Source of the DNA: Komagataeibacter xylinus
GTDB taxonomy: Bacteria > Pseudomonadota > Alphaproteobacteria > Acetobacterales > Acetobacteraceae
Length of the DNA: 64,000 nt
Assembly (NCBI RefSeq): GCF_009834365.1
Contig: NZ_CP041348.1
Location: 864,501 to 928,500 of the forward strand
Reading direction: 5' to 3'
Every line of letters starts with the position of its first letter. Position 1 is the first letter of the stretch. The notes under the pieces are model-generated. The model was not told where the DNA came from, made no database searches, and saw only the letters and a program-made list of their open reading frames with translations. A program made the translations under genes and the position numbers. Of the stretch, positions 10,192-63,246 are shown piece by piece.

Positions 10192-10274
10192 CAAAAGTTT
10201 TTAAGTGCCGCCTTTTTTCAAAAAGGCGTCATTGTTTTGAAGCTTTTTGAAAAAAGCTTCACCAAAAACTTTTA
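10192..10274 (-). repeat. Double-hairpin repeat, copy A (reverse)
   Basis: This copy is full length, in the orientation with GCCGCC first: outer arm AAAAGTTTTT, GCCGCCTTTTTTCAAAAAGGCG, then GAAGCTTTTTGAAAAAAGC and outer arm CAAAAACTTTTAT. It almost fills the 96-base gap between the stop codons of amn and the ymdB-like gene. Confidence 0.9.
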
Positions 10275-10282
10275 TCTGCTGA

Positions 10283-11098
10283 TCAGAAATCAGGCAGCGT
10301 GGGCGCAAGATGCCCCCCCTGCCGCACCGGCGCCATGCGGCGGGCCAGCCCGGTGGCATCATCGGTTTCCACCATCATCCCCGCTATGCTGGCCTCGCCC
10401 TCGGCGGGTTGCAGCCGCTCACCGGGCATCTTGCGCACGAATCGGGCGATGGCGGCATCCTTGCCCATGCCGATCACGCTGTCATAGTCGCCGCACATGC
10501 CCGCATCGGTCTGGAAGGCCGTACCATGGGGGAAGATACGGTGGTCGGCAGTCGGCGTGTGCGTATGCGTGCCAATGACCAGTGACACGCGGCCATCAAG
10601 GAAATGGCCCATGGCCCATTTCTCGCTCGTGGCCTCGGCATGCACATCCACTACGGCGGCGTGCATGGTCACGCCCAGCCGGTGGCGCGAGAGGATATCG
10701 GTCACGCTGCGGAAAGGGTCATCCATCGCATCCATGAACTGCCGGCCCATGATGCTGACCACCAGCGCCTTGCGGCCATCGACAAGTTCCACCACCACGC
10801 TGCCCTGCCCCGGCGTGCCGGGCGGGTAGTTGGCGGGGCGGATGATGCGGGGTTCGCTGTCGATATGGCCGATCAGGTCGCGCCGGTCCCAGCTATGGTT
10901 GCCCAGCGTGATGACATCGGCCCCTGCCGCAAGCAGGTCGCGACCGATGGCGGGCGAGAGGCCAAAGCCGTGGCTGGCGTTCTCGCCATTAACCACCACA
11001 AGGTCGAGGGCAAGATCGCGCCGCAGGCCGGGCAGGCGTGAAATGACGGCCTCGCGCCCCACGCGCCCGACAATATCGCCCAGAAACAGTATTCTCAA
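10283..11098 (-). CDS. YmdB-family metallophosphoesterase
   Basis: This 271-residue protein belongs to the calcineurin-like YmdB family (2',3'-cyclic nucleotide phosphodiesterases of the TIGR00282 type). The metal-binding motifs are visible in order: GDIVGRVGR at the N-terminus, VVVNGENASHG, ITLGNHSWDRRD, VDVHAEATSEK and GTHTHTPTADHRI. The member studied in Bacillus cleaves cyclic nucleotides and affects RNA turnover and biofilm choice. The gene follows the 5-formyl-THF cyclo-ligase gene by 15 bases, so the two are likely co-transcribed. Confidence 0.88.
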   Translation of the reverse strand: MRILFLGDIVGRVGREAVISRLPGLRRDLALDLVVVNGENASHGFGLSPAIGRDLLAAGADVITLGNHSWDRRDLIGHIDSEPRIIRPANYPPGTPGQGSVVVELVDGRKALVVSIMGRQFMDAMDDPFRSVTDILSRHRLGVTMHAAVVDVHAEATSEKWAMGHFLDGRVSLVIGTHTHTPTADHRIFPHGTAFQTDAGMCGDYDSVIGMGKDAAIARFVRKMPGERLQPAEGEASIAGMMVETDDATGLARRMAPVRQGGHLAPTLPDF

Positions 11099-11113
11099 GA
11101 AAACAGCCTTTAT

Positions 11114-11725
11114 CTACCGCGTCCGCCCGTCACCACGACACCGGATCCATTCACGCTCGGTCACGATCGCGGGCAACGCCACGTCATACCGGCCGGTCGG
11201 GATGCACGCCACCTCCTGAAAGGAAAAGCCAAACCCCACCGCCCGCGCCGCGGGCAGGCTGGCCAGCGTACGATCATAATAGCCCCCGCCATATCCCAGC
11301 CGCATGCCCCGCCTGTCAAATGCCAGCAGCGGCACGCACACCACATCGGGCTGCACGATGGGGCCAACAGGGTGGGATGTGCCATAGCGGCCTGCCTGCA
11401 TGGCGCAGCCCGGCTGCCACAGGCGGAAGGCAAGCCTGTGGCCCTTCGGCGTGGTTTCGGGCAGGGCAATGCACAGGCCATCGGCATGGAGCGCATGCAT
11501 GACGGGTTCGAGCGCGCTTTCCCCGGGCAGTGGCCAGACAAGGGCAATGGCATCGCCTGCCGTGGCCATGGCGCGCAGGGCGCGGACCATGCGGTGCTGG
11601 AGGGATTTCTCGGCCATCTCACGCCCGGGGGCTGTGGCGAAAGCGGCCCGCCTGCTGGCCATGATGCCACGCAGGGCCTGTTTGGCATGCGCGGTGGACC
11701 ACGATTCGTTTGCGATGGAAGTCAT
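11114..11725 (-). CDS. 5-formyltetrahydrofolate cyclo-ligase
   Basis: This 203-residue protein converts 5-formyl-THF to 5,10-methenyl-THF with ATP. The C-terminal family signature LAFDRRGMRLGYGGGYYDRTLA is intact, and the LVWPLPGESALEP and PETTPKGHRLAF segments fit the folate and ATP sites. It lies downstream of zapA with a gap that holds a probable 6S RNA, the arrangement conserved in many proteobacteria (ygfA/fau). Confidence 0.93.
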   Translation of the reverse strand: MTSIANESWSTAHAKQALRGIMASRRAAFATAPGREMAEKSLQHRMVRALRAMATAGDAIALVWPLPGESALEPVMHALHADGLCIALPETTPKGHRLAFRLWQPGCAMQAGRYGTSHPVGPIVQPDVVCVPLLAFDRRGMRLGYGGGYYDRTLASLPAARAVGFGFSFQEVACIPTGRYDVALPAIVTEREWIRCRGDGRTR

Positions 11726-11734
11726 GGAAAATGA

Positions 11735-11897
11735 TACGGAGCCACCATGGCCGTTGGTCGGATCAGCCCTCCCGGACCTGCTGACGCAGGTGGGCGCCAG
11801 ATAACGTGACCACGATCACGACAGTGCCAGCTCCCTAGGAAGTGCTTATCGGCCCAGGGGTTGAATCATGCCTGACGCACCCGGCAGCCCCGCCCTT
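11735..11897 (-). ncRNA. ssrS: Probable 6S RNA
   Basis: The gap between zapA and the 5-formyl-THF cyclo-ligase gene is the standard genomic site of 6S RNA in proteobacteria. The reverse strand here is strongly self-complementary and GC-rich. It includes the perfect hairpin ACCTGC-TGAC-GCAGGT (11773-11788 on the + strand) and a central region with CTTCCTAGGGAGCTGG that could form the open promoter-like bubble. The ends are approximate, because I could not compute a fold or covariance score. 6S RNA binds housekeeping RNA polymerase in stationary phase. Confidence 0.6.
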
Positions 11898-11902
11898 TCT
11901 AT

Positions 11903-12244
11903 CTAGTCCTCTTCCATTGCGTCCGCAATGTTTTCCGCACGTTCAACAAGGTGGGCAAGCTGTTCGGTGCGGCGTGCGTTCTCGATGCGCGCCTGCCGGC
12001 CCTGCGCAAGCTGGTGGGCGGTGTCCGATGACATCTTTTCCGCCGTCAGGTCATGGATTTCGTCGGCCATGAGCAGGGCGGCGAGCGCAAGCAGCCGCCC
12101 CTCGCCGCTATGGCCGCCAAGCTCGCGGATGCGCTCGATCCGGCGCTCGACTTCCTGCGCCATGGCCTGGAGGTGTTTCTCCTGCCCTTCCTTGCACCCC
12201 ACGGCGTAGGAAAAACCGTTGATGCGCACGGTAACCTGGCTCAT
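11903..12244 (-). CDS. zapA: Cell division protein ZapA
   Basis: This 113-residue protein starts with MSQVTVRINGFSYAVGCKEGQE, the ZapA globular head that binds FtsZ, followed by a helical coiled-coil stretch (LQAMAQEVERRIERIRELGG and the Glu/Arg/Ala-rich C-terminus). ZapA bundles FtsZ protofilaments at the division site. It is preceded by a small conserved-context gene ending three bases upstream and followed by the putative 6S RNA. Confidence 0.92.
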   Translation of the reverse strand: MSQVTVRINGFSYAVGCKEGQEKHLQAMAQEVERRIERIRELGGHSGEGRLLALAALLMADEIHDLTAEKMSSDTAHQLAQGRQARIENARRTEQLAHLVERAENIADAMEED

Positions 12245-12247
12245 GGC

Positions 12248-12514
12248 CTATTCCTCCCCGCTGGTGGTTTTCCCACCTTCATCAAGCACGTCGCGCACGC
12301 GGGCAATGAGCACGTCGATGTTGGCGGCAAGCGCCTGCAGGTCGACATCTGGCGCTGCTGGCGGCTGGATGGCGGCCTGGGCGGTACGGCGATCAAGAGC
12401 GAAGGCGATGCGATTGAGGGCGAGTTCAAGGCGGTCAGCCGGATTCTCTCCAGCCTCCGAGGGGGAGCGCGCGGCGTCCTGTTCCGGTGGCATGATAATA
12501 TCAGACACGTTCAT
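12248..12514 (-). CDS. Small zapA-linked protein, function unknown
   Basis: The ATG at 12514 has the ribosome-binding sequence GAGGGAAAGG directly upstream; the longer frame from a TTG at 12568 has none. The 88-residue product is acidic at the N-terminus and helical later (DRLELALNRIAFALDRRTAQAA, then DVDLQALAANIDVLIARVRDVLDEG), consistent with a short coiled coil. Many alphaproteobacteria have such a small helical protein (DUF4164-like) just upstream of zapA, but I assign it to that family by context only. Confidence 0.65.
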   Translation of the reverse strand: MNVSDIIMPPEQDAARSPSEAGENPADRLELALNRIAFALDRRTAQAAIQPPAAPDVDLQALAANIDVLIARVRDVLDEGGKTTSGEE

Positions 12515-12570
12515 CCTTTCCCTCGTTCCTCCCCTTGAACTGATCGCGCGGTGCGGTTTCAACGTCAAGC

Positions 12571-12981
12571 ATGATCGACAAACATGACCATTATATGCCG
12601 CTTATCACGGTATCAGACGCAGGAGAGCTGGCGCTGGTCACCACCACGGCAGCATCGTTACGCATGGACTGCGCCGTGGTTTCCCCGCCGGGCGCGGGGT
12701 GTTTCATGGGGGTACCGTGGTGGGCGGCGCTGGTGGCGGACTGCCCGCTGCCCGCCTGGCTGGACTGCGGGCAGGCGGCGGGCCATGCGGCGGCCGCCCT
12801 GCGCGCAGGATTGAGCGGTGTCATTGTCAGCGCCACGGCCGCGCAGCACCATACGCTCGTATCACTGGCACGCATGACGGGTGGCCACGTGCTTCGCCAG
12901 CGCCCGCACGCGCTGGAACTACCGGCAAAGGGTGCGAGGGATGCGCTGGAAAGATACCTGCGTGCCCCCGACATACCATGA
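12571..12981 (+). CDS. Hypothetical protein upstream of aldolase
   Basis: This 136-residue protein is not recognised. It contains an Ala/Gly-rich core that looks like two alpha/beta units (PAWLDCGQAAGHAAAALRAGLSGVIVS) and a basic C-terminal helix. No ribosome-binding site is obvious at 12571; an ATG at 12595 is an alternative. It runs in the same direction as the aldolase gene, 58 bases upstream, and is divergent from the zapA operon. Confidence 0.5.
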   Translation: MIDKHDHYMPLITVSDAGELALVTTTAASLRMDCAVVSPPGAGCFMGVPWWAALVADCPLPAWLDCGQAAGHAAAALRAGLSGVIVSATAAQHHTLVSLARMTGGHVLRQRPHALELPAKGARDALERYLRAPDIP

Positions 12982-13039
12982 CAGAACCGTCCGGGCAGGC
13001 GCAGGATGCACGGACACCCATTTGCAAGGGGAACGAGAA

Positions 13040-13960
13040 ATGACACTGACACCGCAGGTCAAGGCAATCCTTGACCACTACGAAAGTGACACGCCGGGCA
13101 CCAAGGCCAACCTTTACCGGCTCATGAACACCGGCAAGCTCGCCGGTACCGGCAAGCTGGTGATCCTGCCGGTTGACCAGGGCTTCGAGCATGGGCCGGG
13201 CCGTTCCTTCGCCCCCAACCCGCCCGCCTATGACCCGCATTACCATTACTCGCTCGCCATCGAGGCGGGGCTGAACGCATTCGCAGCCCCGCTGGGCATG
13301 CTCGAGGCCGGGGCCAGCACGTTTGCGGGCCAGATTCCCACCATCCTCAAATGCAACAGCTCCGACAGCCTGACCACACAGAAGAACCAGGCCGTGACCG
13401 GCACGGTTGCCGATGCGCTGCGGCTGGGCTGCTCGGCCATCGGGTTCACCATCTACCCTGCCAGCGACTTCCAGTTCCACCAGATGGAGCAGTTGCGCGA
13501 GATGGCGCGCGAGGCCAAGAACGCGGGCCTTGCCGTGGTGGTGTGGAGCTACCCGCGCGGCCCGATGCTCGACAAGGCGGGCGAGACGGCCATCGACATC
13601 TGCGCCTATGCCGCCCACATCGCCGCCGAGCTTGGCGCGCACATCATCAAGGTCAAGCCACCGACCGAGGATCTGTGCCTGCCCGCGGCCAAGAAGGTCT
13701 ATATCGATGAGAAGGTCGATATCGCCACCCTGCCCGCGCGAATCCGCCATGTGGTGCAGTCGGCCTTTGCGGGCCGCCGCATCGTGATCTTCTCGGGGGG
13801 CGAGCACACCACCACCGAGCACCTGCTCGAGACCATCCGCGGCATCCATCAGGGCGGCGGGTTCGGCTCGATCATCGGGCGCAACACCTTCCAGCGCCCC
13901 CGTGCCGAAGCGCTGAAACTGCTCGGTGACATTACCGACATCTTCGCGCAGAAGGTCTGA
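13040..13960 (+). CDS. Fructose-bisphosphate aldolase, class I (DhnA/FbaB type)
   Basis: This 306-residue protein cleaves fructose 1,6-bisphosphate, or makes it in gluconeogenesis. It has the archaeal/DhnA-type class I features: LVILPVDQGFEHGPG near residue 35, and the Schiff-base lysine in GAHIIKVKPPTEDL near residue 205. The ATG at 13040 follows AAGGGGAACGAG. Acetic acid bacteria often lack phosphofructokinase, so a gluconeogenic role is likely. Confidence 0.9.
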   Translation: MTLTPQVKAILDHYESDTPGTKANLYRLMNTGKLAGTGKLVILPVDQGFEHGPGRSFAPNPPAYDPHYHYSLAIEAGLNAFAAPLGMLEAGASTFAGQIPTILKCNSSDSLTTQKNQAVTGTVADALRLGCSAIGFTIYPASDFQFHQMEQLREMAREAKNAGLAVVVWSYPRGPMLDKAGETAIDICAYAAHIAAELGAHIIKVKPPTEDLCLPAAKKVYIDEKVDIATLPARIRHVVQSAFAGRRIVIFSGGEHTTTEHLLETIRGIHQGGGFGSIIGRNTFQRPRAEALKLLGDITDIFAQKV

Positions 13961-13974
13961 TCCTTCTGTCAGTT

Positions 13975-14003
13975 CCCCGCATGGCGAAGCTGGCCATGCG
14001 GGG
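13975..14003 (+). terminator. Hairpin downstream of aldolase gene
   Basis: CCCCGCATGGC (13975-13985) pairs perfectly with GCCATGCGGGG (13993-14003). There is no T tract after the stem, so it may act as a weak terminator or an mRNA-stabilising stem between the aldolase gene and thiE. Confidence 0.5.
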
Positions 14004-14043
14004 GGTGTTCGCCACCGCCACGGTGGCATAGGATCGGCCCGAC

Positions 14044-14676
14044 ATGACCGATTGCCAGCTTTACCTCATCACCCCCGAATCGCTTGATCCGGCCGCTTTC
14101 GCCCCCCGTCTTGCCGAGGCGCTCGACGCAGGCCCGGTTGCGGCGGTGCAACTGCGCCTTAAAAATGTTGATGACGACACGATCCGCCGCGCGGTGGACG
14201 TGCTCCAGCCCGTGACCCATGCGCGTGACGTGGCCTTCATCATGAACGACCGGCCCGACCTTGCCGTAAGCTGCGGCTGCGACGGGGCGCATGTGGGCAT
14301 GGACGATACCGATGTGGCCACCGCCCGGCGCATGCTCGGCGAGGAACGCCAGCTTGGCGTGTCCTGCTATGACAGCCGCGATATGGCCCTGCGCGCGGGT
14401 GAGGCCGGGGCGGATTACGTGGCGTTTGGCGCGTTCTTCCCCTCGCCATCAAAAGAAACCGAAGTCCGGGCCGATCCGGCGCTGCTCACATGGTGGAGCA
14501 GCATGATCGAACTGCCAGTGGTGGCCATTGGCGGCATCACACCTGCAAACTGCGGCACGCTGGTGCGCGCGGGGGCGGATTTTCTGTCGGTCATCAGCAC
14601 GGTGTGGTCGCACCCTGAGGGGCCGGGTGCAGGCGTAAAGGCCATGAACGCAGCGATTGCCGCAGCGGAAGAATAA
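14044..14676 (+). CDS. thiE: Thiamine-phosphate synthase-like protein
   Basis: This 210-residue TIM-barrel protein of the ThiE/TenI family joins the thiazole and pyrimidine phosphates in thiamine synthesis. The family motifs are LYLITPE at the start, AVQLRLKN (the strand-2 lysine region), FIMNDRPDLA, DGAHVGMDD, YVAFGAFFPSPSKE and VVAIGGITPANC. TenI-type isomerases share the fold, but the complete GxFPSxSKE loop favours the synthase. No TPP riboswitch is visible in the 83 bases upstream. The stop codon overlaps the edge of repeat copy B. Confidence 0.85.
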   Translation: MTDCQLYLITPESLDPAAFAPRLAEALDAGPVAAVQLRLKNVDDDTIRRAVDVLQPVTHARDVAFIMNDRPDLAVSCGCDGAHVGMDDTDVATARRMLGEERQLGVSCYDSRDMALRAGEAGADYVAFGAFFPSPSKETEVRADPALLTWWSSMIELPVVAIGGITPANCGTLVRAGADFLSVISTVWSHPEGPGAGVKAMNAAIAAAEE

Positions 14677-14758
14677 AAATTTCTGGTGAAGCTTTTTTCA
14701 AAGAGCTTCGAAAGATGCCGCCTTTTTGAAAAAAAGCGGCACCCAGAAACTGTTAATT
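14675..14758 (+). repeat. Double-hairpin repeat, copy B (forward)
   Basis: This full-length copy reads TTTCTGGTGAAGCTTTTTTC first and then GCCGCCTTTTTGAAAAAAAGCGGC, ending CCCAGAAACTGTTAAT. It overlaps the thiE stop on the left, and its right arm supplies the stop codon (14753-14755) of the converging HEAT-like gene. Confidence 0.9.
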
Positions 14759-15775
14759 TATGGCCCGTGCCTGCTGCTGGCGCAGATAGCCCGCCCAACG
14801 CCGCACGGTTGGGCTACGGTCTGCCTCAAGCACAGGCACAATCGTAGCCAGATCGGGAAAATCCCGCCAGCAATACGCCAATGCCCGCAGCGCCGTGCGC
14901 CTGACCATGGCTGAGCGGTCAAGCAGGGCCGTGGCAATCAGGGCATTACGGTCAACGGGCAGCGTGACATTCCGCCGGGTCAGTTCTGGCGCGGGGCGGT
15001 TGAGGCCCAGCGATTTGTTCACCCATTCCTGCCGGATGCCCGTTTTCCATCGCGCCTGCCCCCATAACAGCACCTGTAGCGCCGTTGCCCGCACGCTGGC
15101 CTGCCGGGCCATACTGGCCAGCATGGGCAGCGCAACATCAAGCAGCGGCGTGCGCAGGAAATAGCGTAGGGTCACCGCCAGCGGGCCATCGCATGCGGTG
15201 GCAAACCGCGCGACCAGCAGCACCCGCACGCTGGGGCGGGTGAATAACTGGTCCATGCAGGCAGCCTGCGCGGGTGCCCAGCGGGTCCAGTCCTGCCAGC
15301 TTGCCCGCAGGGCCAGGCCCATGGCGACCGCAATATCGGGCGCAACCTGCGGGAACAGCCTGCCTGCACACCGTGCAGCGGCCTCGCGCACGGGGCCAGC
15401 CCAGTCATTGAGGCGCATGGCAAGGGCTGCCAGCATGAAAGGCGAGCGCGGCACGGTAACCAGCGCCTTCAGGGCCGCCTCACGCACATAGCCATCTCGA
15501 TGCAATGTCAGGACCTGTGCCAGCATGGGCATGGTGGCCAGCACGCCGCATATGAGGCGGCGATCTTTTTCGGAGTCCACGGGGTAATAAAAACAGCACA
15601 GCGCGTTTCTGATCCGCACACTGGCCGTTAAAATCTGCTCCGCCGGCAGGGCATCAAGCCCTGCAACGCTCGCCGCGACAAGGGCGGTGGGCGGCGAGAT
15701 TCCTGCCAGCAGGCATTGGCCAAGCGCAACGAGGTCGGTCTTGACCGCAGGAGGCAGGTCGTAATCCGTCAACAT
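14753..15775 (-). CDS. HEAT-repeat-like protein, function unknown
   Basis: The ATG at 15775, with GGAG 12 bases upstream, gives a 340-residue all-helical protein. It has repeated Arg/Ala/Leu-rich helical pairs, such as DGYVREAALKALVTVPRS, DWAGPVREAAARCAGRLFP and DRSAMVRRTALRALAYC, which match HEAT/PBS-lyase-type repeats used for protein binding. A longer frame begins at 15877. No catalytic residues are seen. The gene is bracketed by copies B and C of the interspersed repeat in the same orientation, and its stop codon lies in copy B. Confidence 0.65.
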   Translation of the reverse strand: MLTDYDLPPAVKTDLVALGQCLLAGISPPTALVAASVAGLDALPAEQILTASVRIRNALCCFYYPVDSEKDRRLICGVLATMPMLAQVLTLHRDGYVREAALKALVTVPRSPFMLAALAMRLNDWAGPVREAAARCAGRLFPQVAPDIAVAMGLALRASWQDWTRWAPAQAACMDQLFTRPSVRVLLVARFATACDGPLAVTLRYFLRTPLLDVALPMLASMARQASVRATALQVLLWGQARWKTGIRQEWVNKSLGLNRPAPELTRRNVTLPVDRNALIATALLDRSAMVRRTALRALAYCWRDFPDLATIVPVLEADRSPTVRRWAGYLRQQQARAIN

Positions 15776-15897
15776 GGTAAGAAAAGCTCCATGACCGGGT
15801 TCAGGCGCCCCGAATGGGGTGAATACCTGCCGGCAGGAGGCCGGTGATCTTTTTACCAGCAAAACCGCAGGCTGCAAGTCATAATATACCTGAAAGA

Positions 15898-15982
15898 ATA
15901 AAAGTTTCTGGGGAAGATTCTTTCAAAGAACTTCGAAAGACGCCGCCTTTTTGAAAAAAGGCGGCACCCAGAAACTTTTATT
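15898..15982 (+). repeat. Double-hairpin repeat, copy C (forward)
   Basis: This full-length copy starts AATAAAAGTTTCTGGGGAAG and has the second hairpin GCCGCCTTTTTGAAAAAAGGCGGC and end arm CCCAGAAACTTTTATT. The first hairpin is degenerate (GAAGATTCTTTC/GAACTTC). It ends four bases before the epmA stop, downstream of epmA and upstream of the HEAT-like gene. Confidence 0.9.
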
Positions 15983-15986
15983 ATTA

Positions 15987-17018
15987 TCAGATATTTGTTG
16001 CTGCATCCCCCAGCCACTGCACATCGGCAATCCGGTTCGTGCCCGCCGCCAGCATCACCAGCCGGTCAAAACCCAGCGCAATGCCTGCGCAAGGCGGCAG
16101 GGTGCCAAGGGCGGACAGAAAGGCTTCATCCATCGGCCAGTCCAGCCCGGATTCGCCAGGGTACAGGGCTGCGCGCCGTGCCCGGTCGGCCTCAAAGCGG
16201 GCGCGCTGCTCGTTGGGGTCGGTCAGTTCCTCGAACGCATTGGCCAGTTCGATGCCCCCTGCATAAAGCTCGAAACGCAGCGCCACGCGCGGGTCGGCGG
16301 GATCGCGCCGGGCCAGCGCCGCCTGGCTTGCGGGCCAGTGGGTGAGAAAAGTGGGGCGCGTGCGGCCGATATGCGGCTCGATGCGCGCCATCATCAGGCG
16401 GAAGAACAGGTCCTCCCACGTCTCGCCCCGGCGCAGGTCACAGCCTGCCGCCTCAGCCAGCGCCGCGGCGTCGCCCTCATGGGCAAGAATGTCCACCCCC
16501 GCATAGCGTGCGAAGGCTTCGGCAACCGTCAGGCGCTCGAAGGGGGCAGTCGTGCTGATTTCATCTCCCCCTGCCCGCACCACCGGCGGCAGGACCGCGC
16601 GCAGCAGGGATTCGGTTTCATCCATCAGCCCTGCCAGCGTGGCACCCGGGCGGTACCATTCCAGCATGGTGAACTCATGGGCATGCAGCCTGCTGCCCTC
16701 TTCATTCCGCCACACGCGTGCAAGCTGGTACACGGGCAGGCCGGTGGCGGCGACGATGCGCTTCATGGCAAATTCCGGGCTCGTATGCAGCCACAGCCTC
16801 TCGCGGCTGCCATCAGCACCCGCGCGCTCGGTGGCAAAGACCTTGAGGTGCACTTCCTCGCCCGGAGTCGGCACGGCGTAGGGGGTCTCGACTTCCGTAT
16901 AATTCCGCGCATCAAAAAACGCCCGCACGCCGCGCAGCACGAGGTTGCGGCGCAGCAGCAGGGGCAGCCGGTCGGCAATGCGGGCACAGTCGGGGCGTGG
17001 GGGCTGGGACTCGGGCAT
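15987..17018 (-). CDS. epmA: EF-P--(R)-beta-lysine ligase
   Basis: This 343-residue homologue of the class II lysyl-tRNA synthetase catalytic core lacks the anticodon-binding domain, as expected for EpmA (GenX/PoxA/YjeA). The class II motifs are present: VRAFFDARNYTEVETP, RLWLHTSPEFAMKR, ARVWRNEEGSRLHAHEFTMLEWYR and the C-terminal GIALGFDRLVML. It attaches (R)-beta-lysine to elongation factor P. It is divergent from epmB, which makes the substrate, and efp follows epmB. The frame continues upstream antisense to epmB, but the family start is MPESQPPRPDCARIADRL at 17018. Confidence 0.92.
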   Translation of the reverse strand: MPESQPPRPDCARIADRLPLLLRRNLVLRGVRAFFDARNYTEVETPYAVPTPGEEVHLKVFATERAGADGSRERLWLHTSPEFAMKRIVAATGLPVYQLARVWRNEEGSRLHAHEFTMLEWYRPGATLAGLMDETESLLRAVLPPVVRAGGDEISTTAPFERLTVAEAFARYAGVDILAHEGDAAALAEAAGCDLRRGETWEDLFFRLMMARIEPHIGRTRPTFLTHWPASQAALARRDPADPRVALRFELYAGGIELANAFEELTDPNEQRARFEADRARRAALYPGESGLDWPMDEAFLSALGTLPPCAGIALGFDRLVMLAAGTNRIADVQWLGDAATNI

Positions 17019-17069
17019 GGGGCACGCTCTTTGGTTGCAGCGGACGGTTGCGCGCAGTACAGCCCCCGC

Positions 17070-18134
17070 ATGGCACTCCCGGTCAATCCCCCCCAGCCCG
17101 CGCGCACGCTGCGCAGCGTGGCCGACCTGCTTGCGGCAGGGCTGATTACGCCCGCGCAGGCTCCAGCGCTGGAAAACGTGGCGAAACACTACGCCACTGC
17201 CATTCCTCCCGCCTTTGCCAGCCTGATCGAAACACCCGATGACCCGATCGGCCGCCAGGTCATTCCCGATGCGACGGAATGCCACGCTGACCCCACGGAA
17301 GACCCGGACCCGATTGGCGATGACGCGCTCTCCCCCGTGCCCGGCATCGTGCACCGCTATGCCGACCGCGCGCTGCTCAAGCCGCTGCTGGTCTGCCCGC
17401 TTTACTGCCGCTTCTGCTTCCGCCGCGAGCATGTCGGCCCCGGCGGCGGCGTGCTTGATGAGGCCGCCCTCGAGACAGCGCTCGACTGGCTGCGCACGCA
17501 CCCTGACATTCATGAAGTCGTGATGACCGGCGGCGACCCGCTCATGCTCTCGGCGCGGCGCATGCGCATGATCATGCAGGCCCTTGAGGGGATGGAGCAT
17601 ATCCACACCATCCGCATCCACTCCCGCGTGCCGGTGGCCGACCCCGACCGGCTTGATGAGGAAATGGCCGCAGCACTCGAGACCACGCGCTCGATGTGGC
17701 TGGTGGCGCACATAAACCACGCACGCGAACTCACGCCCACAGCCCGCGCCGCCATCCGCCGCGTGCAGGCGCGCGCCATACCGGTTTTGGGCCAGTCCGT
17801 GCTGCTGCGCGGCGTGAATGATACGCCAGAAGCCCTCGAGGCGCTTTTGCGCGCGCAGGTGGCTGCCCGCATCCGCCCCTATTACCTGCACCAGCTTGAC
17901 CCTGCGCCGGGCACCGCACGCTTTCATGTGCCCATACGCGAGGGGCAGCGCCTGCTCGCAAGCCTGCGCGGGCGGATGACGGGCATTGCGTGGCCGACCT
18001 ATGTGCTCGACATTCCCGGCGGGCATGGCAAGGTGCCGATCGGGCCGGATTACCTGCGCACCGGGCCCGATGGCATGCTCAACGCACTGGCGCCCGATGG
18101 CACGCTGCACCGCCTTGCGCGCGAACAGGGGTGA
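17070..18134 (+). CDS. epmB: EF-P-linked L-lysine 2,3-aminomutase
   Basis: This 354-residue radical SAM enzyme isomerises lysine to (R)-beta-lysine for EF-P modification. The iron-sulfur cluster motif CPLYCRFC lies at residues 109-116, followed by RREH and EVVMTGGDPLML, and the PLP/SAM-binding LHQLDPAPGTARFHVP segment is near the C-terminus. It is placed between epmA, which is divergent, and efp, which is 86 bases downstream and in the same direction. Confidence 0.93.
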   Translation: MALPVNPPQPARTLRSVADLLAAGLITPAQAPALENVAKHYATAIPPAFASLIETPDDPIGRQVIPDATECHADPTEDPDPIGDDALSPVPGIVHRYADRALLKPLLVCPLYCRFCFRREHVGPGGGVLDEAALETALDWLRTHPDIHEVVMTGGDPLMLSARRMRMIMQALEGMEHIHTIRIHSRVPVADPDRLDEEMAAALETTRSMWLVAHINHARELTPTARAAIRRVQARAIPVLGQSVLLRGVNDTPEALEALLRAQVAARIRPYYLHQLDPAPGTARFHVPIREGQRLLASLRGRMTGIAWPTYVLDIPGGHGKVPIGPDYLRTGPDGMLNALAPDGTLHRLAREQG

Positions 18135-18220
18135 AAAGAGGGGCGCCAAACCTTGCCCTTCCGCGCGCGGGGCGCTAGAAGCCGAACCGCCATACTTCCC
18201 ACAACCATACAGGGACCACC

Positions 18221-18787
18221 ATGAAGCAGCAGGCAAACCTGATCCGTGCCGGGCAGGTCATCGAGCACGACGGCCGTCGCTGGACGGTCCTGAAGCAGCA
18301 GATCATCACGCCGGGCAAGGGCGGCGCATTCATCCAGGTGGAAATGCGCGACCTCAAGACCGGCAACAAGACCAACGAGCGCTGGCGCACCGCCGATACC
18401 GTTGAACGCCTGATGACCGAGGAGAAGGAATACACCTACTCCTACATGGACGGCGACAACATCGTGCTCATGGACCCCGAGACCTTCGAGCAGCTGCTCC
18501 TGCCGCTTGACCTGCTTGGTGATCAGGCTCCCTTCCTGCAGGACAACATGACCCTGGTGCTCAACCTCGTGGAAGGCGACCCGGTTGGCGTGACGCTGCC
18601 CGCGCAGGTCACGCTTGAGGTGGTCGAGGCCGACCCGGTGGTGAAGGGCCAGACGGCCAGCTCGTCCTACAAGCCTGCCCGCCTGTCCAATGGCGTGAAG
18701 ACCATGGTGCCCCCCTTCATTGAAGCCGGCGAGCGCATCGTGGTCCGCACCGAGGACAGCAGCTACGTCGAGCGCGCCAAGTCCTGA
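18221..18787 (+). CDS. efp: Elongation factor P
   Basis: EF-P (188 residues) relieves ribosome stalling at polyproline. The modified lysine is K33, in the loop TPGKGGAF; a lysine at this place fits EpmA-type lysylation. The OB domains and the C-terminal motif NGVKTMVPPFIEAGERIVVRTEDSSYVERAK are complete. This and the two modification genes form a self-contained set. Confidence 0.97.
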   Translation: MKQQANLIRAGQVIEHDGRRWTVLKQQIITPGKGGAFIQVEMRDLKTGNKTNERWRTADTVERLMTEEKEYTYSYMDGDNIVLMDPETFEQLLLPLDLLGDQAPFLQDNMTLVLNLVEGDPVGVTLPAQVTLEVVEADPVVKGQTASSSYKPARLSNGVKTMVPPFIEAGERIVVRTEDSSYVERAKS

Positions 18788-22824: not shown

Positions 22825-22866
22825 ACCGCCGCCTTTTTGAAAAAAGGCGGCGCCCATAAACTTTTG
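22825..22866 (+). repeat. Double-hairpin repeat, copy D (partial, second hairpin only)
   Basis: Only the right half remains: GCCGCCTTTTTGAAAAAAGGCGGC followed by CCCATAAACTTTTGT. It lies between the MotB-like gene and the converging TPR gene, where it can still act as a bidirectional terminator. Confidence 0.85.
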
Positions 22867-22883
22867 TCTTTCGGTTATGCCCT

Positions 22884-26337: not shown

Positions 26338-26395
26338 AAAGAAGTTTTTGGTGAAGCTTTTCCCAAAAAGCTTCAGGAAGAACGTCGCTTTTTTA
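26338..26395 (+). repeat. Double-hairpin repeat, copy E (degenerate)
   Basis: The left half is clear (GAAGTTTTTGGTGAAGCTTTTCCCAAAAAGCTTC), while the second hairpin is reduced to AACGTCGCTTTTTTAG and cannot fold. It lies between tRNA-Asp and the converging fructosamine-kinase-like gene. Confidence 0.75.
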
Positions 26396-43026: not shown

Positions 43027-43059
43027 CATGACGTGACACCGGGCCGTAGACACCAGAAA

Positions 43060-43142
43060 CAAAAGTTTTCGGGTGCCGCCTTTTTTCAAAAAAGCGATGT
43101 TCTTTCCAAAGCTTTTAAAAAAAGCTTCACCAAAAACTTTTG
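43060..43142 (-). repeat. Double-hairpin repeat, copy F (reverse)
   Basis: This near full-length copy in reverse orientation has outer arm CAAAAGTTTTCGGGTG, GCCGCCTTTTTTCAAAAAAGCG (second arm shortened), then AAAGCTTTTAAAAAAAGCTT and outer arm CACCAAAAACTTTTG. It lies between the small coiled-coil gene and the converging MFS gene. Confidence 0.85.
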
Positions 43143-43161
43143 ATTTTTACGGGTATGCCAC

Positions 43162-45733: not shown

Positions 45734-45759
45734 CCGACCTTCAGCCATCCTGAAAGCCT

Positions 45760-45845
45760 AAAAGGGTCTGGTGAAGCTTTTTTCAAAAAGCTGAAAAAAA
45801 CGCCGCCTTTTTGAAAAAAGGCGGCGCCCGGAAACCTTTGTTATT
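45760..45845 (+). repeat. Double-hairpin repeat, copy G (forward)
   Basis: This full-length copy reads AAAGGGTCTGGTGAAGCTTTTTTCAAAAAGCT (first arm pair slightly shortened), then GCCGCCTTTTTGAAAAAAGGCGGC and arm GCCCGGAAACCTTTGTTAT. It lies between the small secreted protein gene and the converging opgH. Confidence 0.9.
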
Positions 45846-50624: not shown

Positions 50625-50639
50625 CATATTTCAAAATAA

Positions 50640-50663
50640 TAAAAGCTTCACCAGAACCTTTTT
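50640..50663 (-). repeat. Double-hairpin repeat, copy H (fragment)
   Basis: Only one end of the element survives (AAAAGCTTCACCAGAACCTTTTT), in reverse orientation. It lies between the GNAT gene and the converging mannitol dehydrogenase gene and reaches into the stop codon of the latter (50662-50664). No hairpin can form from it. Confidence 0.7.
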
Positions 50664-53292: not shown

Positions 53293-53297
53293 GCGGC

Positions 53298-54881: not shown

Positions 54882-54961
54882 GGGGCTCTTACATCCTGCT
54901 GAACGGGATCGATCGGACGGGCACCTATATCACGCCCTTTACGGGGGCGGAAACCACAGCT

Positions 54962-57472: not shown

Positions 57473-57481
57473 AAGCCTTGA

Positions 57482-57545
57482 TACCGCCTTTTTTAAAGGC
57501 GGTATTTTTTGAAGCTTTTTGAAAAAAGCTTCACCAAAAACTTTG
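57482..57545 (-). repeat. Double-hairpin repeat, copy I (short, reverse)
   Basis: ACCGCCTTTTTTAAAGGCGGT followed by GAAGCTTTTTGAAAAAAGCTTC and the outer arm CACCAAAAACTTTG. The left outer arm is missing but both hairpins can form. It lies ten bases after the Mrp stop, between Mrp and the converging DjlA-like gene. Confidence 0.85.
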
Positions 57546-57561
57546 ATTGGTTTTTAAAAAA

Positions 57562-57597
57562 CAGAAATTTTCTGGTTCTTTTTTATAAAAAAGAACC
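57562..57597. terminator. Two palindromes next to copy I
   Basis: CAGAAATTTTCTG (57562-57574) and GGTTCTTTTTTATAAAAAAGAACC (57574-57597) are two perfect palindromes sharing one base, just after the stop of the leftward DjlA-like gene. The second has long A and T runs and can terminate transcription in both directions. It is a different sequence from the interspersed repeat. Confidence 0.7.
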
Positions 57598-57612
57598 GTT
57601 TAACTACACAAA

Positions 57613-58428
57613 CTACAGCTTGCGATCCCGCTTGATCCGGTCCCACGCCGCATTGATCTGGGCAATCCGGGCCTCGCCCTGCGCGCGCATGGCCTCACTC
57701 GCCCCGCGCGCGGCCAGCACATCGGGGTGGTGCTCGCGCACGAGGCGGCGCCAGACCACGCGCACTTCGTCATTGCTCGCATCGCGTGAAATGCCCAGCA
57801 CCTCATAGGCATCGATTTCGCTCACGCCGGGGCGGGCACCGCCTTCGCTCGCGCGGTCCCATGCACCGGGGCTGAGGTTGAAGGCCTTGTGCACGCCGCG
57901 CAGAAAGGCTTCCTCCTGCATGTTGACCGGCCCGTCAGCACGGGCAATGACGAACAGCGCGGCCAGCGCCTCCTCCAGCATGTCGGTCTTGTTGGCAAAC
58001 GCGCGGCCCAACTCGGAGGCGAAAGCCCTGTAATCATCGGTGCGCTGGCGGGCGTTATCGAACAGGCGGCCCACTTCCTTCATGTTCTCGGGCGGGAGAT
58101 GGAAGCGGCGCTTGAAGGCGTCGATCTCGGCGCGGTTCACCGACCCGTCGCATTTGGCCACCTTGGCGGACAGGATGATGATGACCAGCCCGTATAACTG
58201 GTCGCGCTTGCCCATGGCCGCAGCCATCTTGGCCGCCATGAAGGTGGCCGCCCCGTTGGGGTCGGCATTGAGCCGCGGGCCCCAGCGATCGGTCCAGCCG
58301 CCTGCGGGGGTTTCCAGCAGTGAGCCGTTATCCGCTGCGTGCCCGAGCGCCGTGCCCACGACCGCGCCCATGGGGCCGCCAACCGCGAACCCCGCAACGC
58401 CACCAAAAATCTTGCCCCAGATTGCCAT
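57613..58428 (-). CDS. DjlA-like protein, TerB domain plus J domain
   Basis: This 271-residue protein has a short Gly-rich hydrophobic N-terminus (WGKIFGGVAGFAVGGPMGAVVG), a TerB-like helical domain (about 60-180, with AKVAKCDGSVNRAEI) and a C-terminal J domain (about 205-270) with the HPD motif in EHHPDVLA that stimulates DnaK ATPase. It resembles DjlA, a membrane-linked co-chaperone, and was probably acquired vertically. Confidence 0.87.
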   Translation of the reverse strand: MAIWGKIFGGVAGFAVGGPMGAVVGTALGHAADNGSLLETPAGGWTDRWGPRLNADPNGAATFMAAKMAAAMGKRDQLYGLVIIILSAKVAKCDGSVNRAEIDAFKRRFHLPPENMKEVGRLFDNARQRTDDYRAFASELGRAFANKTDMLEEALAALFVIARADGPVNMQEEAFLRGVHKAFNLSPGAWDRASEGGARPGVSEIDAYEVLGISRDASNDEVRVVWRRLVREHHPDVLAARGASEAMRAQGEARIAQINAAWDRIKRDRKL

Positions 58429-58455
58429 GCCCCGACGCTAGCACGGTTTGCCCGG

Positions 58456-58755
58456 TCAACCCAACTGATCTTGCCCGTCCGCACCCGCCATTTCGGGCAG
58501 GGCTGGCATCCATTCGCGCAATGCCTCCACCCGCAGGGCAGACGCCAGAGGCCGGTCTGGCGGGCGGGCGGCATCGACCTGCCCCACAAGGGCGGCAAGT
58601 GCCAGACCGCGTGCCTGGGCAATAAGGTGCAGCGCGTGCCAGAACTCCGGCTCCAGCGCCACGCTGGTGCGGTGGCCCGACAGGTTGAGGCTGCGCTTGT
58701 GCAGCATCCGGGCAGCCCGCTGGGCGGGCAGCGGCATGGCGGGCGGCTCGCTCAT
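58456..58755 (-). CDS. Ribbon-helix-helix protein linked to queG
   Basis: This 99-residue protein has a C-terminal region [28 protein letters not shown] in type (here [20 protein letters not shown]), typical of the RHH_4 family of small DNA-binding proteins. The ATG overlaps the queG stop (ATGA), so it is translated with the queuosine operon. No target is known. Confidence 0.75.
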
Positions 58756-59819
58756 GCAGGCAGCCGCAGCGTGGCCCATCGGGCGGCCTCTGCCACGACG
58801 GGATCAGGGTCATTGCACAGGCGGCTCACCACCGGGCGCAGGGCCGCCTGCCCGCTATTGCCAATGGCTACCGCCACATTGCGCACAAAGCGGTTGCGCC
58901 CGATGCGCTTGATGGGCGAGCCGGAAAAACGCGCCCGGAAGCCTGCATCATCCAGCCCGGCAAGTTCCACCAGCGCAGGGGCGTGCAGGTCATCACGCGC
59001 GGCGAGCTTCATGTGGCTGGTGGCCTGCGCGAATCGGTTCCACGGGCAGACGGCAAGGCAGTCATCGCAGCCATAGATGCGGTTGCCCATGGCGGGGCGC
59101 AGCTCAACGGGAATCGGGTCGCGGTTCTCGATGGTGAGATAGGAGATGCATCGCCGTGCATCCATTACGCCGGGTGCGGGAAAGGCATCGGTCGGGCAGG
59201 CCTCAAGGCAGCGGGTGCAACTGCCGCACCCGCCGCCCGAGGGGGCGGATTGCGGCAGGTCGAGCGTGGTGTAGACCTCGCCCAGAAACAGCCAGCTCCC
59301 GTGCTGCCGCGACACCAGCGAGGTATGCTTGCCCTGCCAGCCCAACCCCGCATTCTGCGCCAGCGGTTTTTCCATGACCGGGGCGGTATCGACAAACACC
59401 TTGACCTGCGTCTCGCTGCCTGCCCGCCTGCCCTCGTTCACCACAAACTGCGCCAGATGCTTGAGCATGCCCTTGACCACGTCATGGTAGTCGCGGTTGC
59501 GGGCATAGACCGAAATATTGCCCGCATCAGGCACCCGCGTGGTGGCCAGTGCATCGCCCTGTGGCGCGTAGTTCAGCCCCAGCGCGATCACGCTGCGCAC
59601 CTCGGGCCACAGGGTGGCGGGGTCGCCGCGCTGGGCCATGCGCTCGGCCATCCAGCCCATGCTGCCCGCAAATCCATTCTCCACAAAGGCGGCAAGGCGC
59701 GCGCGCGTCGCCTCATCGAGCCGGGCGGGCGCAAACCCCACGGCATCAAAACCCAGCGCGCGCGCGTGATCTGCAATGCGGACCGCAAGGCGGGCCGGAT
59801 CAGGCGACGCCTGTGCCAT
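58752..59819 (-). CDS. queG: Epoxyqueuosine reductase
   Basis: This 355-residue cobalamin- and iron-sulfur-dependent enzyme does the last step of queuosine synthesis. The two ferredoxin-like cluster motifs [16 protein letters not shown] and [13 protein letters not shown] are complete, and a short HEAT-like helix pair ends the protein ([24 protein letters not shown]). Its start directly abuts the tgt stop. Confidence 0.95.
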
Positions 59820-60979
59820 CAGGCCACGGGTGGGATGTCGGGAAAGGGCATTTCATCCCCACTCCAGTCATCCATTGCCCATTGCGCCCGCAGGTGGGCG
59901 GCATGGGCTTCGAACGTGCCATCGACAATGGCCGCCCGCATGCCGCGCATGAGCCGCTGGTAATAGGCGATGTTGTGCCATGTCAGCAGCATCGGGCCGA
60001 GCATCTCGTTGGCGCGGAACAGATGGTGCAGGTAGGCGCGGCTGTGGCGCGAACAGGCCAGGCAGTCGCAATGCGGCGAGATGGGCCGCGAATCGCTGGC
60101 ATGCCGCGCGTTGCGGATATTGAGCGTGCCGCGCTCGGTGTAGGCGCGCGCCGTGCGCCCCGCCCGCGTGGGCATGACGCAGTCGAACATGTCCACCCCG
60201 CGCTCCACGGCACCAAGCAGGTCATCGGGTGTGCCAACGCCCATCAGGTAGCGCGGGCTGCCATCGGGGATGAGCGGCACGGTGGCCTCAAGGGTAGAGA
60301 ACATCAGTTCCTGCCCCTCGCCCACCGCAAGGCCACCAATGGCGTAGCCCTCGAAGCCGATGCCGGTCAGCGCCTTTACGCTCTCGGCGCGCAGTTCCGG
60401 CTCGGTGCCGCCCTGGATGATGCCATACTGCGCGTAACCCGGCCGCTGCACGAACGCCTCGCGGCACCGCTGCGCCCAGCGCATCGACATGCGCATGGAC
60501 TGGGCAATGACCTCCGGCGCTGCAGGCAGGGCGGGACATTCGTCAAAGCACATGCTGATGGTGGCATCGAGCGCATGCTGGATGTCGGTCGAACGCTCGG
60601 GCGTGAGGCGATGCTTGGAGCCATCGATATGCGAGCGGAAGGTTACGCCATCGGGGTCGAGCTTGCGCAGCGGGCCGAGCGACATGACCTGAAACCCACC
60701 CGAATCGGTCAGGATCGGCCCCGGCCAGTCCATGAACCGATGCAGTCCGCCAAGCTGGCGCACCCGCTCGGCGCCGGGGCGGAGCATGAGGTGATAGGTA
60801 TTGCCCAGCACGATGCCTGCCCCCGTCGAGCGCACGCTGTCCATCGTCATGGCCTTGACCGTGCCCACCGTGCCCACGGGCATGAAGGTGGGGGTGGCAA
60901 CCGTGCCATGCGCGGTATCGAGCCAGCCCGCCCGGGCGTGGCCGCAGCGCGCTTCGGGCCGCCAGTTGAAGGTGGTCAT
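59819..60979 (-). CDS. tgt: tRNA-guanine transglycosylase
   Basis: This 386-residue TIM-barrel enzyme swaps guanine 34 for preQ1. Key parts are [15 protein letters not shown] with an active-site Asp, the nucleophile region [20 protein letters not shown], and the zinc site [18 protein letters not shown] with its cysteines and His. It overlaps the queA end by four bases. Confidence 0.97.
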
Positions 60980-62034
60980 GGCAGGTCTCCCTCGGTGCGG
61001 TGCAGCAGGCAGGCATCGCCATAGGAATAGAAGCGGTAGCCGCTGGCAATGGCATGGGCATAGGCCGCCTGCATGCGATGGTAGCCGCCAAAGGCGCAGA
61101 CCAGCATGAACAGGGTCGAGCGCGGCAGGTGAAAATTGGTCAGCAGCATGTCCACCGCGCGGAAGCGGTAGCCGGGTTTGATGAAGATGGCCGTCTCGCC
61201 ATGAAAGGGGTGAACGATGCCGTTTTCATCCGTCGCACTTTCAAGCAGGCGCAGCGAGGTGGTGCCCACAGCCACGATCCGGCCGCCTGCCGCGCGCGCG
61301 GCATTGATGCGCCGGGCCGCATGCGGCGAGATGGTGCCACGCTCGGCATGCATGCGGTGGGCGGAAATCTGGTCACTGCGCATGGGCAGGAAGGTGCCCG
61401 CGCCCACATGCAGGGTCAGTGTCTGGCGGATGACGCCTGCCTTATCGAGGGCGGCCAGCAGCTCCGGCGTAAAGTGCAGCCCCGCCGTGGGGGCGGCCAC
61501 CGCACCCCGGTGCTGGGCGAATATGGTGCTGTAGTCCTTGCGGTCTTCCTCGGTCGGGCCATCGGGGCGGGCGATATAGGGCGGCAGGGCCAGCTTTCCT
61601 GCATCATGCAGGAACTGGTCGAACGCTGCCCCTTCGGCGCTGAAGCGCAGGGTTACATCACCTGCATCGCCCCGGCTGATGACCTCCGCCGTGACAGGAC
61701 TGCGCCCGAAGGTAAGCGTATCACCCGGCCGCAGGCGGCGGGCATTGCGGGCGAGCACATGCCATGAACCATCGGGCAGGATGCGGTCGAGTGTAATGCC
61801 GATCTTCGCCTCGCCGCGCATGGCGGCAAGCTGGGCGGGGATCACCGCCGTGTCATTGGCGACCAGAATGTCGCCCGCCCGCAGGCAGCCCGGCAGGTCG
61901 CGCACGTGGCGGTCAATGAAGGGGCCTTGCCCGGGCACATCGAGCAGGCGCGCGCTGTCACGCGGGCGGGCCGGGTGATCGGCAATGCTCGTGGGCGGGA
62001 GGGTGAAGTCGAAATCAGAAACCAGATCCGTCAT
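60976..62034 (-). CDS. queA: S-adenosylmethionine:tRNA ribosyltransferase-isomerase
   Basis: This QueA of 352 residues adds the epoxy-cyclopentane ring to preQ1 in tRNA. It shows [67 protein letters not shown] and [18 protein letters not shown], all typical. The ATG at 62034 follows AAAGGGTGCC; an earlier in-frame extension runs into a repeat copy and is rejected. It heads the queA-tgt-queG-RHH operon. Confidence 0.95.
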
Positions 62035-62141
62035 GCGGCACCCTTTACGGAATCCGCACCCCGGTTGCCAGTACGAACTCTCATCGCCCGCGTAAAGAAG
62101 CTGCTGGAAAAGCCTGCCCACTGCATGTGCTGCAAATCATG

Positions 62142-62226
62142 CAAAAGTTTTTGGCGAAGCTTTTTTTCAAAAAGCTTCGAAGAACGCCGCCTTTCTGAAA
62201 TAAAGGTGGCACCCAGAAACTTTTAT
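62142..62226 (+). repeat. Double-hairpin repeat, copy J (forward)
   Basis: This full-length copy has AAAAGTTTTTGGCGAAGC with arms AAAAAGCTTC, and a second hairpin with two substitutions (GCCGCCTTTCTGAAATAAAGGTGGC). The closing arm is CCCAGAAACTTTTAT. Unlike the other full copies it sits between divergent genes, upstream of both queA and the small ORF. Confidence 0.88.
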
Positions 62227-62377
62227 TCCTTTTTCCACTAGGCTTCCTGCGCCTGCTGCATGGCGGCGTTGGACAGACGCAGCCGGGAAAGCCACAATGC
62301 GGCAGCGATTCCCATACGGGAATGTTCCCCGCCTGCACCCGGCGCGCCGGATGCCGCGCAATTTATGGAGTTAGCCC

Positions 62378-62605
62378 ATGTCCTACGCCGCCCTTGATGC
62401 CGTCCGTATTGCCCGCGCCTGCAAGACTGCACTGCATGTGCTCGAAACGGTGGAAGAAAAGGACCGCAGCGAGGCCCACCAGCGCAAGACCATCATGATC
62501 CAGCGCATCGAGGCCCTGGCCCGCGCCGCCGCCGAGAGCAAGAACAACGACCAGGTCATTACCCTGACCTCGGAAGAATTCTGGCTGATCAGCCAGAACT
62601 GGTAA
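62378..62605 (+). CDS. Small helical protein, function unknown
   Basis: This 75-residue protein has one long helix (DAVRIARACKTALHVLETVEEKDRSEAHQRKTIMIQRIEALARAAAE) and a short hydrophobic C-terminus. GGAG lies nine bases upstream of the ATG, which supports expression. No family is recognised; codon use is ordinary for the window. Confidence 0.6.
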   Translation: MSYAALDAVRIARACKTALHVLETVEEKDRSEAHQRKTIMIQRIEALARAAAESKNNDQVITLTSEEFWLISQNW

Positions 62606-62668
62606 TTCCAGGCGCCATTACCCTCCCCCTATTCGCGCCAACCCCGGCACGAAAAGCAGGAAACCCAC

Positions 62669-63163
62669 ATGACGTTTACACTGACCAGCCGCTCCTTCAA
62701 CGATGGCGACCGCCTGCCTGAAGCGCAGGTGTTTGAAGGCATGGGCTATTGCGGCGGCAACATCTCGCCGCCGCTGGCATGGCAGGACCCGCCTGCGGGC
62801 ACCAAGAGCTTTGCCATCACCATGTACGACCCCGATGCGCCCACCGGCTCGGGCTGGTGGCACTGGGTTGTCATCAACATCCCTGCCGAGGTCACCTCGC
62901 TGCCCGCAGGCGCTGGTTCGGGCGACAACAACCTGCCCGAACATGCCGAGATGACGCGCACCGACTTTGGTGGCAACGTATATGGCGGTGCAGCGCCCCC
63001 GCCCGGGCCGGAGCATCGCTACATCTTCACCATCCACGCGCTTGATATCGCGCAGATCGAACTGCCGAGCGATGCCTCGGGCGCCATGGTGGGGTTTGTG
63101 ATCAACCAGCATAGCCTGGGCTCGGCCAAGCTTACGGCCGTGTATGGCAAGAAGCCGAAATAA
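62669..63163 (+). CDS. YbhB/YbcL-type Raf-kinase-inhibitor-like (PEBP) protein
   Basis: This 164-residue PEBP-fold protein has the DPDAPTGSGWWHWVVINIP signature and the second conserved motif GPEHRYIFTIHALD. Bacterial members bind anionic ligands or inhibit proteases; the function here is not known. It ends in contact with repeat copy K. Confidence 0.9.
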   Translation: MTFTLTSRSFNDGDRLPEAQVFEGMGYCGGNISPPLAWQDPPAGTKSFAITMYDPDAPTGSGWWHWVVINIPAEVTSLPAGAGSGDNNLPEHAEMTRTDFGGNVYGGAAPPPGPEHRYIFTIHALDIAQIELPSDASGAMVGFVINQHSLGSAKLTAVYGKKPK

Positions 63164-63246
63164 GAGAAGTTTTTGGTGAAGCATTTTTCAAAAAGCTTCG
63201 AAAAATGCCGCCTTTTTGAAAAAAGGCGGCACTCAAAAACTTTTAT
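63163..63246 (+). repeat. Double-hairpin repeat, copy K (forward)
   Basis: This full-length copy reads GAAGTTTTTGGTGAAGCATTTTTCAAAAAGCTTC, then TGCCGCCTTTTTGAAAAAAGGCGGCA and closing arm CTCAAAAACTTTTAT. It overlaps the last base of the PEBP stop codon and ends six bases before the stop of the converging VOC gene. Confidence 0.9.

Follow-up and report, generated by a model that had tools for sequence, protein, structure and literature searches.

From the accessible parts of their accounts, both miniature inverted-repeat transposable elements (MITEs) and terminator-like repeats are already known (PMC6382973, PMC10969869). MITEAba12 of Acinetobacter, in the available portion of its description, measures 111-114 bp, makes 9-bp duplications, and has predicted outward promoters and no predicted terminators (PMC6382973). 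SPRITE of Streptococcus pneumoniae is a repeated element with rho-independent-terminator-like sequence, and the available text of the same source calls terminator action of MITEs conceivable (PMC10969869). Repetitive extragenic palindromes (REPs) and their BIME and REPIN composites are, according to the part of PMC3733652 at hand, extragenic palindromes found as inverted pairs, mostly in unidirectional and convergent gaps, tagged GTAG or CGTC, and linked to REP-associated tyrosine transposases (RAYTs); CGTC repeats are missing in Acetobacteraceae. For acetic acid bacteria, the accessible text of PMC6528568 mentions the insertion sequence (IS) IS1031. Here, we describe a double-hairpin repeat with eleven copies (A to K) in a 64-kb stretch of the Komagataeibacter xylinus genome (64% GC; hereafter “the window”), together with the mobile unit that contains it. 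Like MITEAba12, as far as that partial account goes, this unit is short and non-coding, with target duplications and with terminal inverted repeats similar but not identical to those of ISs of the host genus; unlike MITEAba12, it is 162-163 bp long, makes 3-bp duplications, holds a double-hairpin core, and has 84-bp relics at most of the convergent gene ends examined. It resembles SPRITE, by description only, in being a repeated element with terminator-like sequence, whereas the occupancy of convergent gaps and the targeting of stop codons seen here are not met in the accessible account of SPRITE and MITEs (PMC10969869). With REP, BIME and REPIN sequences it shares the extragenic palindromes, the inverted pairing and the preferred gaps, but neither the tags nor the RAYT link described in the consulted part of PMC3733652 applies to it. 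Literature searches, mostly over titles and the starts of abstracts, returned no description of this family, and combining Komagataeibacter with “miniature inverted-repeat” gave general mentions only.

The repeat is part of a larger transposon-derived unit. The initial annotation had described a consensus of about 80 bases as the element; the repeat is real, but it forms only the core of the mobile unit, a MITE of 162-163 bp that has terminal inverted repeats and creates target-site duplications. When orthologous gaps were compared, longer sequence was found to adjoin some copies and to run to a terminal GAGRCTGTTTGAAAA some 30-37 bp beyond the core, and in several genomes this 15-bp end turned up as inverted pairs a fixed distance apart (G000 denotes the genome of the window, and other G-numbers the genomes compared with it). 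The exact end is present in 18 of the 19 genus genomes, against none in 19 for a reversed-pattern control, with 63 ends in G004 and 0-24 in each of the others; the abundance in G004 has the look of a recent burst. We fetched 20 copies with two exact ends ~147 bp apart (14 from G004, 3 from G013, and 1 each from G005, G018, and G009), all of which had no transposase gene and were 162-163 bp long, a length that follows from how they were chosen. Identical 3-bp flanks, i.e., a perfect target-site duplication, which played no part in the choice, were present in 17 of the 20 and were mostly TTA or TAA (L215 and L219, with a common right flank, possibly stem from a single event). Opposite the G004 insertion L214, the relatives G009, G010, and G011 have an empty site that contains one TTA; their left flanks show alignment gaps, and identity across the 400-base joint as a whole is 80-83%. 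A 162-163 bp unit with inverted ends and a 3-bp duplication is a MITE, and the transposon origin is well supported. The core on its own was rejected as the mobile unit, as no consistent duplication was visible by eye at the ends of the G000 copies inspected. The MITE occurs in seven plasmid records (six from Komagataeibacter and one from Novacetimonas); a full-length copy at NZ_CP094849.1:86647-86808, on a Novacetimonas hansenii plasmid, is 96% identical to a G004 copy, and hence the element can sit on plasmids. Phages gave no match to the MITE.

The core is abundant throughout the genus. A covariance model (R1) built from eight window copies identified at least 150 places in G000, every one at E <= 3e-5 and all, among the matches listed, on contig C1. 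The head motif AAAAGTTTYTGG occurs at 109 exact sites, compared with 0 for the same pattern read backwards, and together these counts place the motif beyond chance. In a search of 60 genomes that included G000, R1 matched in 18 of 18 congeners (38 to at least 75 places each) and, outside the genus, in 1 of 41 genomes, with 7 weak matches in G022, a member of the same family but of another genus. A comparison of the neighborhood of an EpmA-like gene, covering 47 of 56 loci plus the window, placed copies near this gene in Novacetimonas and G. entanii records as well, and none near it in the Asaia and Acetobacter records compared. By eye, and among the matches listed, the cores of G000 seem denser at ~0.4-1.5 Mb than past 2.2 Mb.

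The positions of the copies relative to genes are far from random. Across 464 kb of G000, in which a simple codon-usage gene caller defined 400 genes (87% coding), none of the 78 copies lay inside a gene, and the median distance from a copy to the nearest stop codon was 8 bp. The initial annotation had foreseen a genome-wide family of structured elements, mainly between genes, that a covariance search of this genome and its relatives would recover, and these data agree with that picture. With 3 copies at stretch edges left unclassified, the remaining 75 comprised 44 in convergent gaps, 28 in tandem gaps, mostly close to the stop of the upstream gene, and 3 in divergent gaps. Expressed per gap of at least 30 bp, a copy was present in 40/53 convergent, 26/165 tandem, and 3/61 divergent gaps (convergent versus remaining gaps, Fisher P = 9e-19). 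Young insertions struck stop codons more often than TAA/TTA sites fall on them by chance. The set comprised 66 distinct insertions bearing one or two exact ends, taken from chosen loci rather than from every end; 46 had TAA or TTA at an end, and 11 of these 46 sat exactly at a coding stop. In the 464 kb of G000, stops make up 98 of 3118 TAA/TTA sites (P = 1e-7) or, if only stop and noncoding sites are counted, 98 of 1318 (P = 4e-4), a baseline that comes from G000 while the insertions come from other species and that defines gene ends by codon usage only. The excess over the second baseline implies that insertions do more than merely avoid genes. Regarding termination, a scan of gaps up to 600 bp looked for canonical terminators other than the element and located one in 6 of the 40 convergent gaps that hold a copy, versus 5 of the 11 that do not. 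A simple terminator rule, namely a GC-rich stem followed directly by a T run, was fitted by 22 of the 40 occupied convergent gaps when the element sequence was included and by 6 when it was left out.

On balance, we lean towards a combined reading in which a MITE is drawn to gene ends by its target and its core is kept there as a bidirectional terminator or 3′-end structure. The MITE, whose 15-bp ends resemble those of IS5-family elements of the genus, duplicates a 3-bp target that is mostly TTA or TAA; such triplets are scarce in a GC-rich genome and part of them are stop codons, which would steer insertion to gene ends, and the 3-bp duplication would leave the stop codon intact. The outer ends would erode later, as is seen for part of the old copies, and the nearly symmetric double hairpin is kept beside stop codons, mainly between convergent genes, presumably by selection. 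There, the core would most likely act on both strands as a transcription terminator or 3′-end structure, and would end both convergent transcripts. Because the core is nearly symmetric, its reversal in place would be tolerated, presumably with no loss of this role. A more far-reaching version, in which an IS5-type MITE whose TNA target led it to stop codons has been domesticated genus-wide as the standard bidirectional terminator of convergent genes, its ends discarded and either orientation working, is put forward tentatively and falls somewhat short of an even chance. What would be new here is the occupation of most convergent gaps, the targeting of stop codons, and the survival of a core beyond its transposon. 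If this holds, gene-end signals throughout a bacterial genus were taken over by a transposon whose choice of target would explain how that could happen without harm; this would also aid the annotation and engineering of cellulose-producing Komagataeibacter. The replacements of gene ends, reversals, and empty sites that occur naturally between close species make a terminator role at convergent genes testable on natural variants.

Older copies retain traces of the full unit to varying degrees. In G000, 1 exact MITE end and 15 ends within one mismatch stand against at least 150 cores, and one copy, L166, is nearly full and has a TCA duplication. Beside 41 full-length cores of this genome, the right subterminal remnant matched at a mean of 14.7 of 35 positions, compared with 12.1 for shuffled flanks, 11.4 for reversed flanks, 12.2 for the flank on the other side, and 11.1 at a distance of 300-600 bp. 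A remnant score of at least 18 was reached in 8/41 right flanks versus 0.5% of shuffles and 1/41 opposite flanks. Part of the cores are therefore worn MITEs, and presumably all of them are. Since the copies were found by their core, copies with worn cores are under-counted. At L161 (G000:C1 near 711,780), MITE-like ends form a short pair that encloses little sequence and no recognizable core.

Comparison between species revealed that the core differs in orientation, or is absent, at given loci. We compared 14 loci of G000 with as many as 21 records from Komagataeibacter, Novacetimonas, and G. entanii, where L049 and L050, whose contigs equal G003 C10 and G013 C11 in length, were included in the per-locus comparison and excluded from the orientation totals and the core ranking. 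Of the 128 comparisons, which share ancestry, 59 showed the same orientation and 32 the inverted one; the element was absent in 29, and 8 were unclear. For the half copies D, E, and I, orientation was judged from the remaining half, and some of the comparisons at E span more than 1 kb. Of 21 records, 18 have a copy at locus D, 2 have none, and 1 is unclear, with flank identities down to ~70%. At locus G, the aligned flanks lie 10-19 bp apart with no element in G013, G002, G012, and G001, and G012 was empty at 9 of its 10 compared loci and unclear at the other. The core is reversed at locus K in G003 and G007, with intact flanks, at locus F in G003 and G018 (same orientation in G007, absent in G005), and at locus C in K. 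xylinus K2G30; at all three loci, the flanks agree almost up to the edge of the core. To judge from a ranking of core sequences, reversal in place is favored at locus C, where the best match of the reversed core among 141 is the orthologous core of G003, and is plausible at locus F, where the G000 core ranks 5th for G003 and 21st for G018. At locus K, where the G000 core ranks 49th for G007, replacement by another copy may have taken place instead. Inversion through short hairpin arms has been described for plastid DNA in the accessible part of PMC12928735, and by analogy a similar process may act on these cores.

The 84-bp core is predicted to be highly structured. The RNAalifold consensus of the eight window copies consists of an outer stem and two hairpins, i.e., a three-way junction, with 34 pairs. 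The initial annotation had proposed this junction for the element, and copies B, C, G, J, and K are predicted to fold into it, as is A on the other strand; on the modeled strand, copies A and F prefer a single long hairpin. Single copies were more stable than their shuffles in 10 of 10 folds, two of them of the opposite strand, with z scores of -3.8 to -8.6. Read inwards from its two ends, the element shows like units, each made of a head AAAAGTTTTTGG(G)TG and then a hairpin, and is thus an inverted pair. Paired substitutions, which had been anticipated along with the structure, are present, albeit weakly, in 49 aligned copies of G000 (mean column identity 77%): Doubly changed cells that still pair numbered 30 versus 17.6 in shuffles (reached by 0/500), spread over 15 pairs versus 8.6 (1/500), and paired cells amounted to 87.8% versus 87.1%. 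In the outer stem, G-U changes were commoner than A-C changes (77 versus 36). Template-switch correction of palindromes could mimic paired substitutions.

Several observations weigh against the combined reading. The covariation signal is weak and the copies are related: Upon sliding the partners by -1 column, 27 doubly changed cells in 13 pairs remained, probably because of A and T runs, the number of pair types was reached by 39 of 500 shuffles, and the covariation term of RNAalifold was slightly unfavorable (+2.03). In the hairpins, 31 G-U changes faced 44 A-C changes, with no strand preference. Only 16 of 40 convergent gaps owe a match with the terminator rule to the element itself. Among the examined gaps of relatives that lack a copy, 23 of 26 also lack a canonical terminator, so that a given gap can do without the element, although 6 of the 26 belong to the divergent locus J, where no terminator is expected, and some hold fragments below the cut-off. 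Most old copies have no clear outer-end remnant, and the pattern of a kept core with lost ends is partly a matter of ascertainment by the core. None of 30 DDE loci scanned contained a transposase with exactly the ends of the MITE. Last, purging alone could make much of the positional pattern.

This last point is at the heart of the alternative that survives best, in which the copies are neutral debris: IS5-type MITEs would land at TNA sites everywhere, insertions into genes and promoters would be lost, and the survivors, with a functionless core, would pile up in convergent gaps. Purging by itself would produce the observed order convergent > tandem > divergent, and the weak covariation, the nearly empty G012, and the relatives that manage at locus G with 10-19 bp between the flanks and no terminator all fit this account. 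It fits less well with the occupancy of 40/53 convergent gaps, with the 77% identity that 49 cores maintain while the outer part is mostly unrecognizable beside 41 of them (copies found by core), and with the persistence of locus D across records whose flanks have diverged to ~70% identity. We regard neutral debris as unlikely, though as a serious competitor. We consider it rather unlikely, too, that the core protects or processes mRNA 3′ ends, as an exonuclease barrier or RNase III site, instead of terminating transcription. The stability of all 10 folds and the closeness of tandem copies to the upstream stop speak for such a role, as does the hypothesis, in the part of PMC3733652 available, that REPs stabilize mRNA; sequence alone cannot separate it from termination, and the fit to convergent gaps suits termination on two strands at least equally well.

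It is more doubtful still that the core is the older and independent part, a terminator-like double hairpin that was later enclosed between IS5-type ends to form the MITE. Most cores in G000 indeed lie a few bases from stop codons without outer arms, and cores far outnumber ends in that genome; against this, degenerate subterminal sequence persists in register beside some old copies (clearest at L166 and at G000:C1 near 970,700), the core is not known from any other carrier, and end-bearing copies also occur in Novacetimonas. A REPIN- or BIME-like REP pair moved by a RAYT (Y1) transposase, which the inverted pairing of one head-plus-hairpin unit would recall, is extremely improbable and was rejected, in line with the initial annotation, which did not recognize the element as REP or BIME, on account of the absence of any Y1_Tnp (PF01797) match in 19 of 19 genus genomes, alongside the inverted-repeat ends and 3-bp duplications of the mobile unit, a GTAG tag in 0/49 copies of G000, and CGTC, on either strand and anywhere, in 9/49.

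A candidate source of mobility for the MITE is given by IS5-family elements with similar ends. In 59 loci scanned for paired ends, only L226 and L224 resembled whole elements of this kind; they are IS5-family elements of 884 and 897 bp, respectively, whose transposases match NF033580 transpos_IS5_3 and whose ends differ from those of the MITE at 2-3 of 15 bases. Their flanks are TAA/TAA for L224 and TTA/TGA for L226. IS1031 is an IS5-type element with a TNA target, and the link of the MITE to IS1031 and other IS5-family elements of acetic acid bacteria consists in the IS5-type transposase and the similar ends of L226 and L224. Unlike the MITE, IS5-family elements carry a transposase gene in ~0.9 kb, and no exact parent was found. 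An IS5-type transposase may mobilize the MITE in trans. A further candidate, L251 in G009, had the position of an IS, but the end seen there is that of a MITE copy. A PDB sequence search with the L226 transposase gave no match.

Within the window, the double-hairpin motif was present at all 11 places that the initial annotation had listed, one of them a fragment (H) and two partial (D and E). A profile scan recovered 10 of the 11, missing only H, and mean column identity among eight aligned copies was 85%. Near-complete cores are A, B, C, F, G, J, and K. Copy A (10190-10275, minus strand) takes up the gap (10187-10282) in which an AMP nucleosidase gene and a metallophosphoesterase-like gene converge; as in some other gaps, this one is made up of stop, core, and stop with no space for more. 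Copy B (14673-14756, plus strand) lies between a convergent thiE-like gene and an open reading frame (ORF) with HEAT-repeat matches, and copy C (15898-15981, plus strand) directly past the stop codon of the EpmA-like gene. Copies F (43058-43143, minus strand), G (45758-45841, plus strand), and K (63163-63246, plus strand) are likewise near-complete, as is J (62141-62226, plus strand), which is one of the three matches that the simple gene caller placed in divergent gaps. The remaining copies are reduced: D (22827-22867, plus strand) to the right half alone, E (26338-26394, plus strand) to the left half with a degenerate second hairpin, and H (50637-50662, minus strand) to a fragment in a convergent gap of 37 bp, while I (57480-57547, minus strand) has kept both hairpins and lost its right outer arm.

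The plasmid collection contained no near match to a 5-kb piece of the window. At gathering score, Rfam reported for the window two tRNAs and a 6S RNA only (the latter at 11735-11893 on the minus strand, 71.7 bits), and the double hairpin corresponded to no known Rfam family. Elsewhere in G000, the 3015-base loci L167 (G000:C1 near 1,933,540) and L168 (near 1,946,270) are identical, and the stretch is therefore duplicated ~12.7 kb apart. The ORF between the EpmA-like gene and thiE (14753-15877, minus strand) has HEAT-repeat matches only, and at this locus the next gene seems, by eye, to adjoin the element directly in several other species. The EpmA-like gene (15987-18236, minus strand) encodes a lysyl-tRNA-synthetase homologue with ~425 additional N-terminal residues, in which no Pfam family was matched. 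Nearly full-length relatives of this protein exist, and in K. nataicola and K. xylinus records it is 88-91% identical, with the gene end and the flank in agreement.

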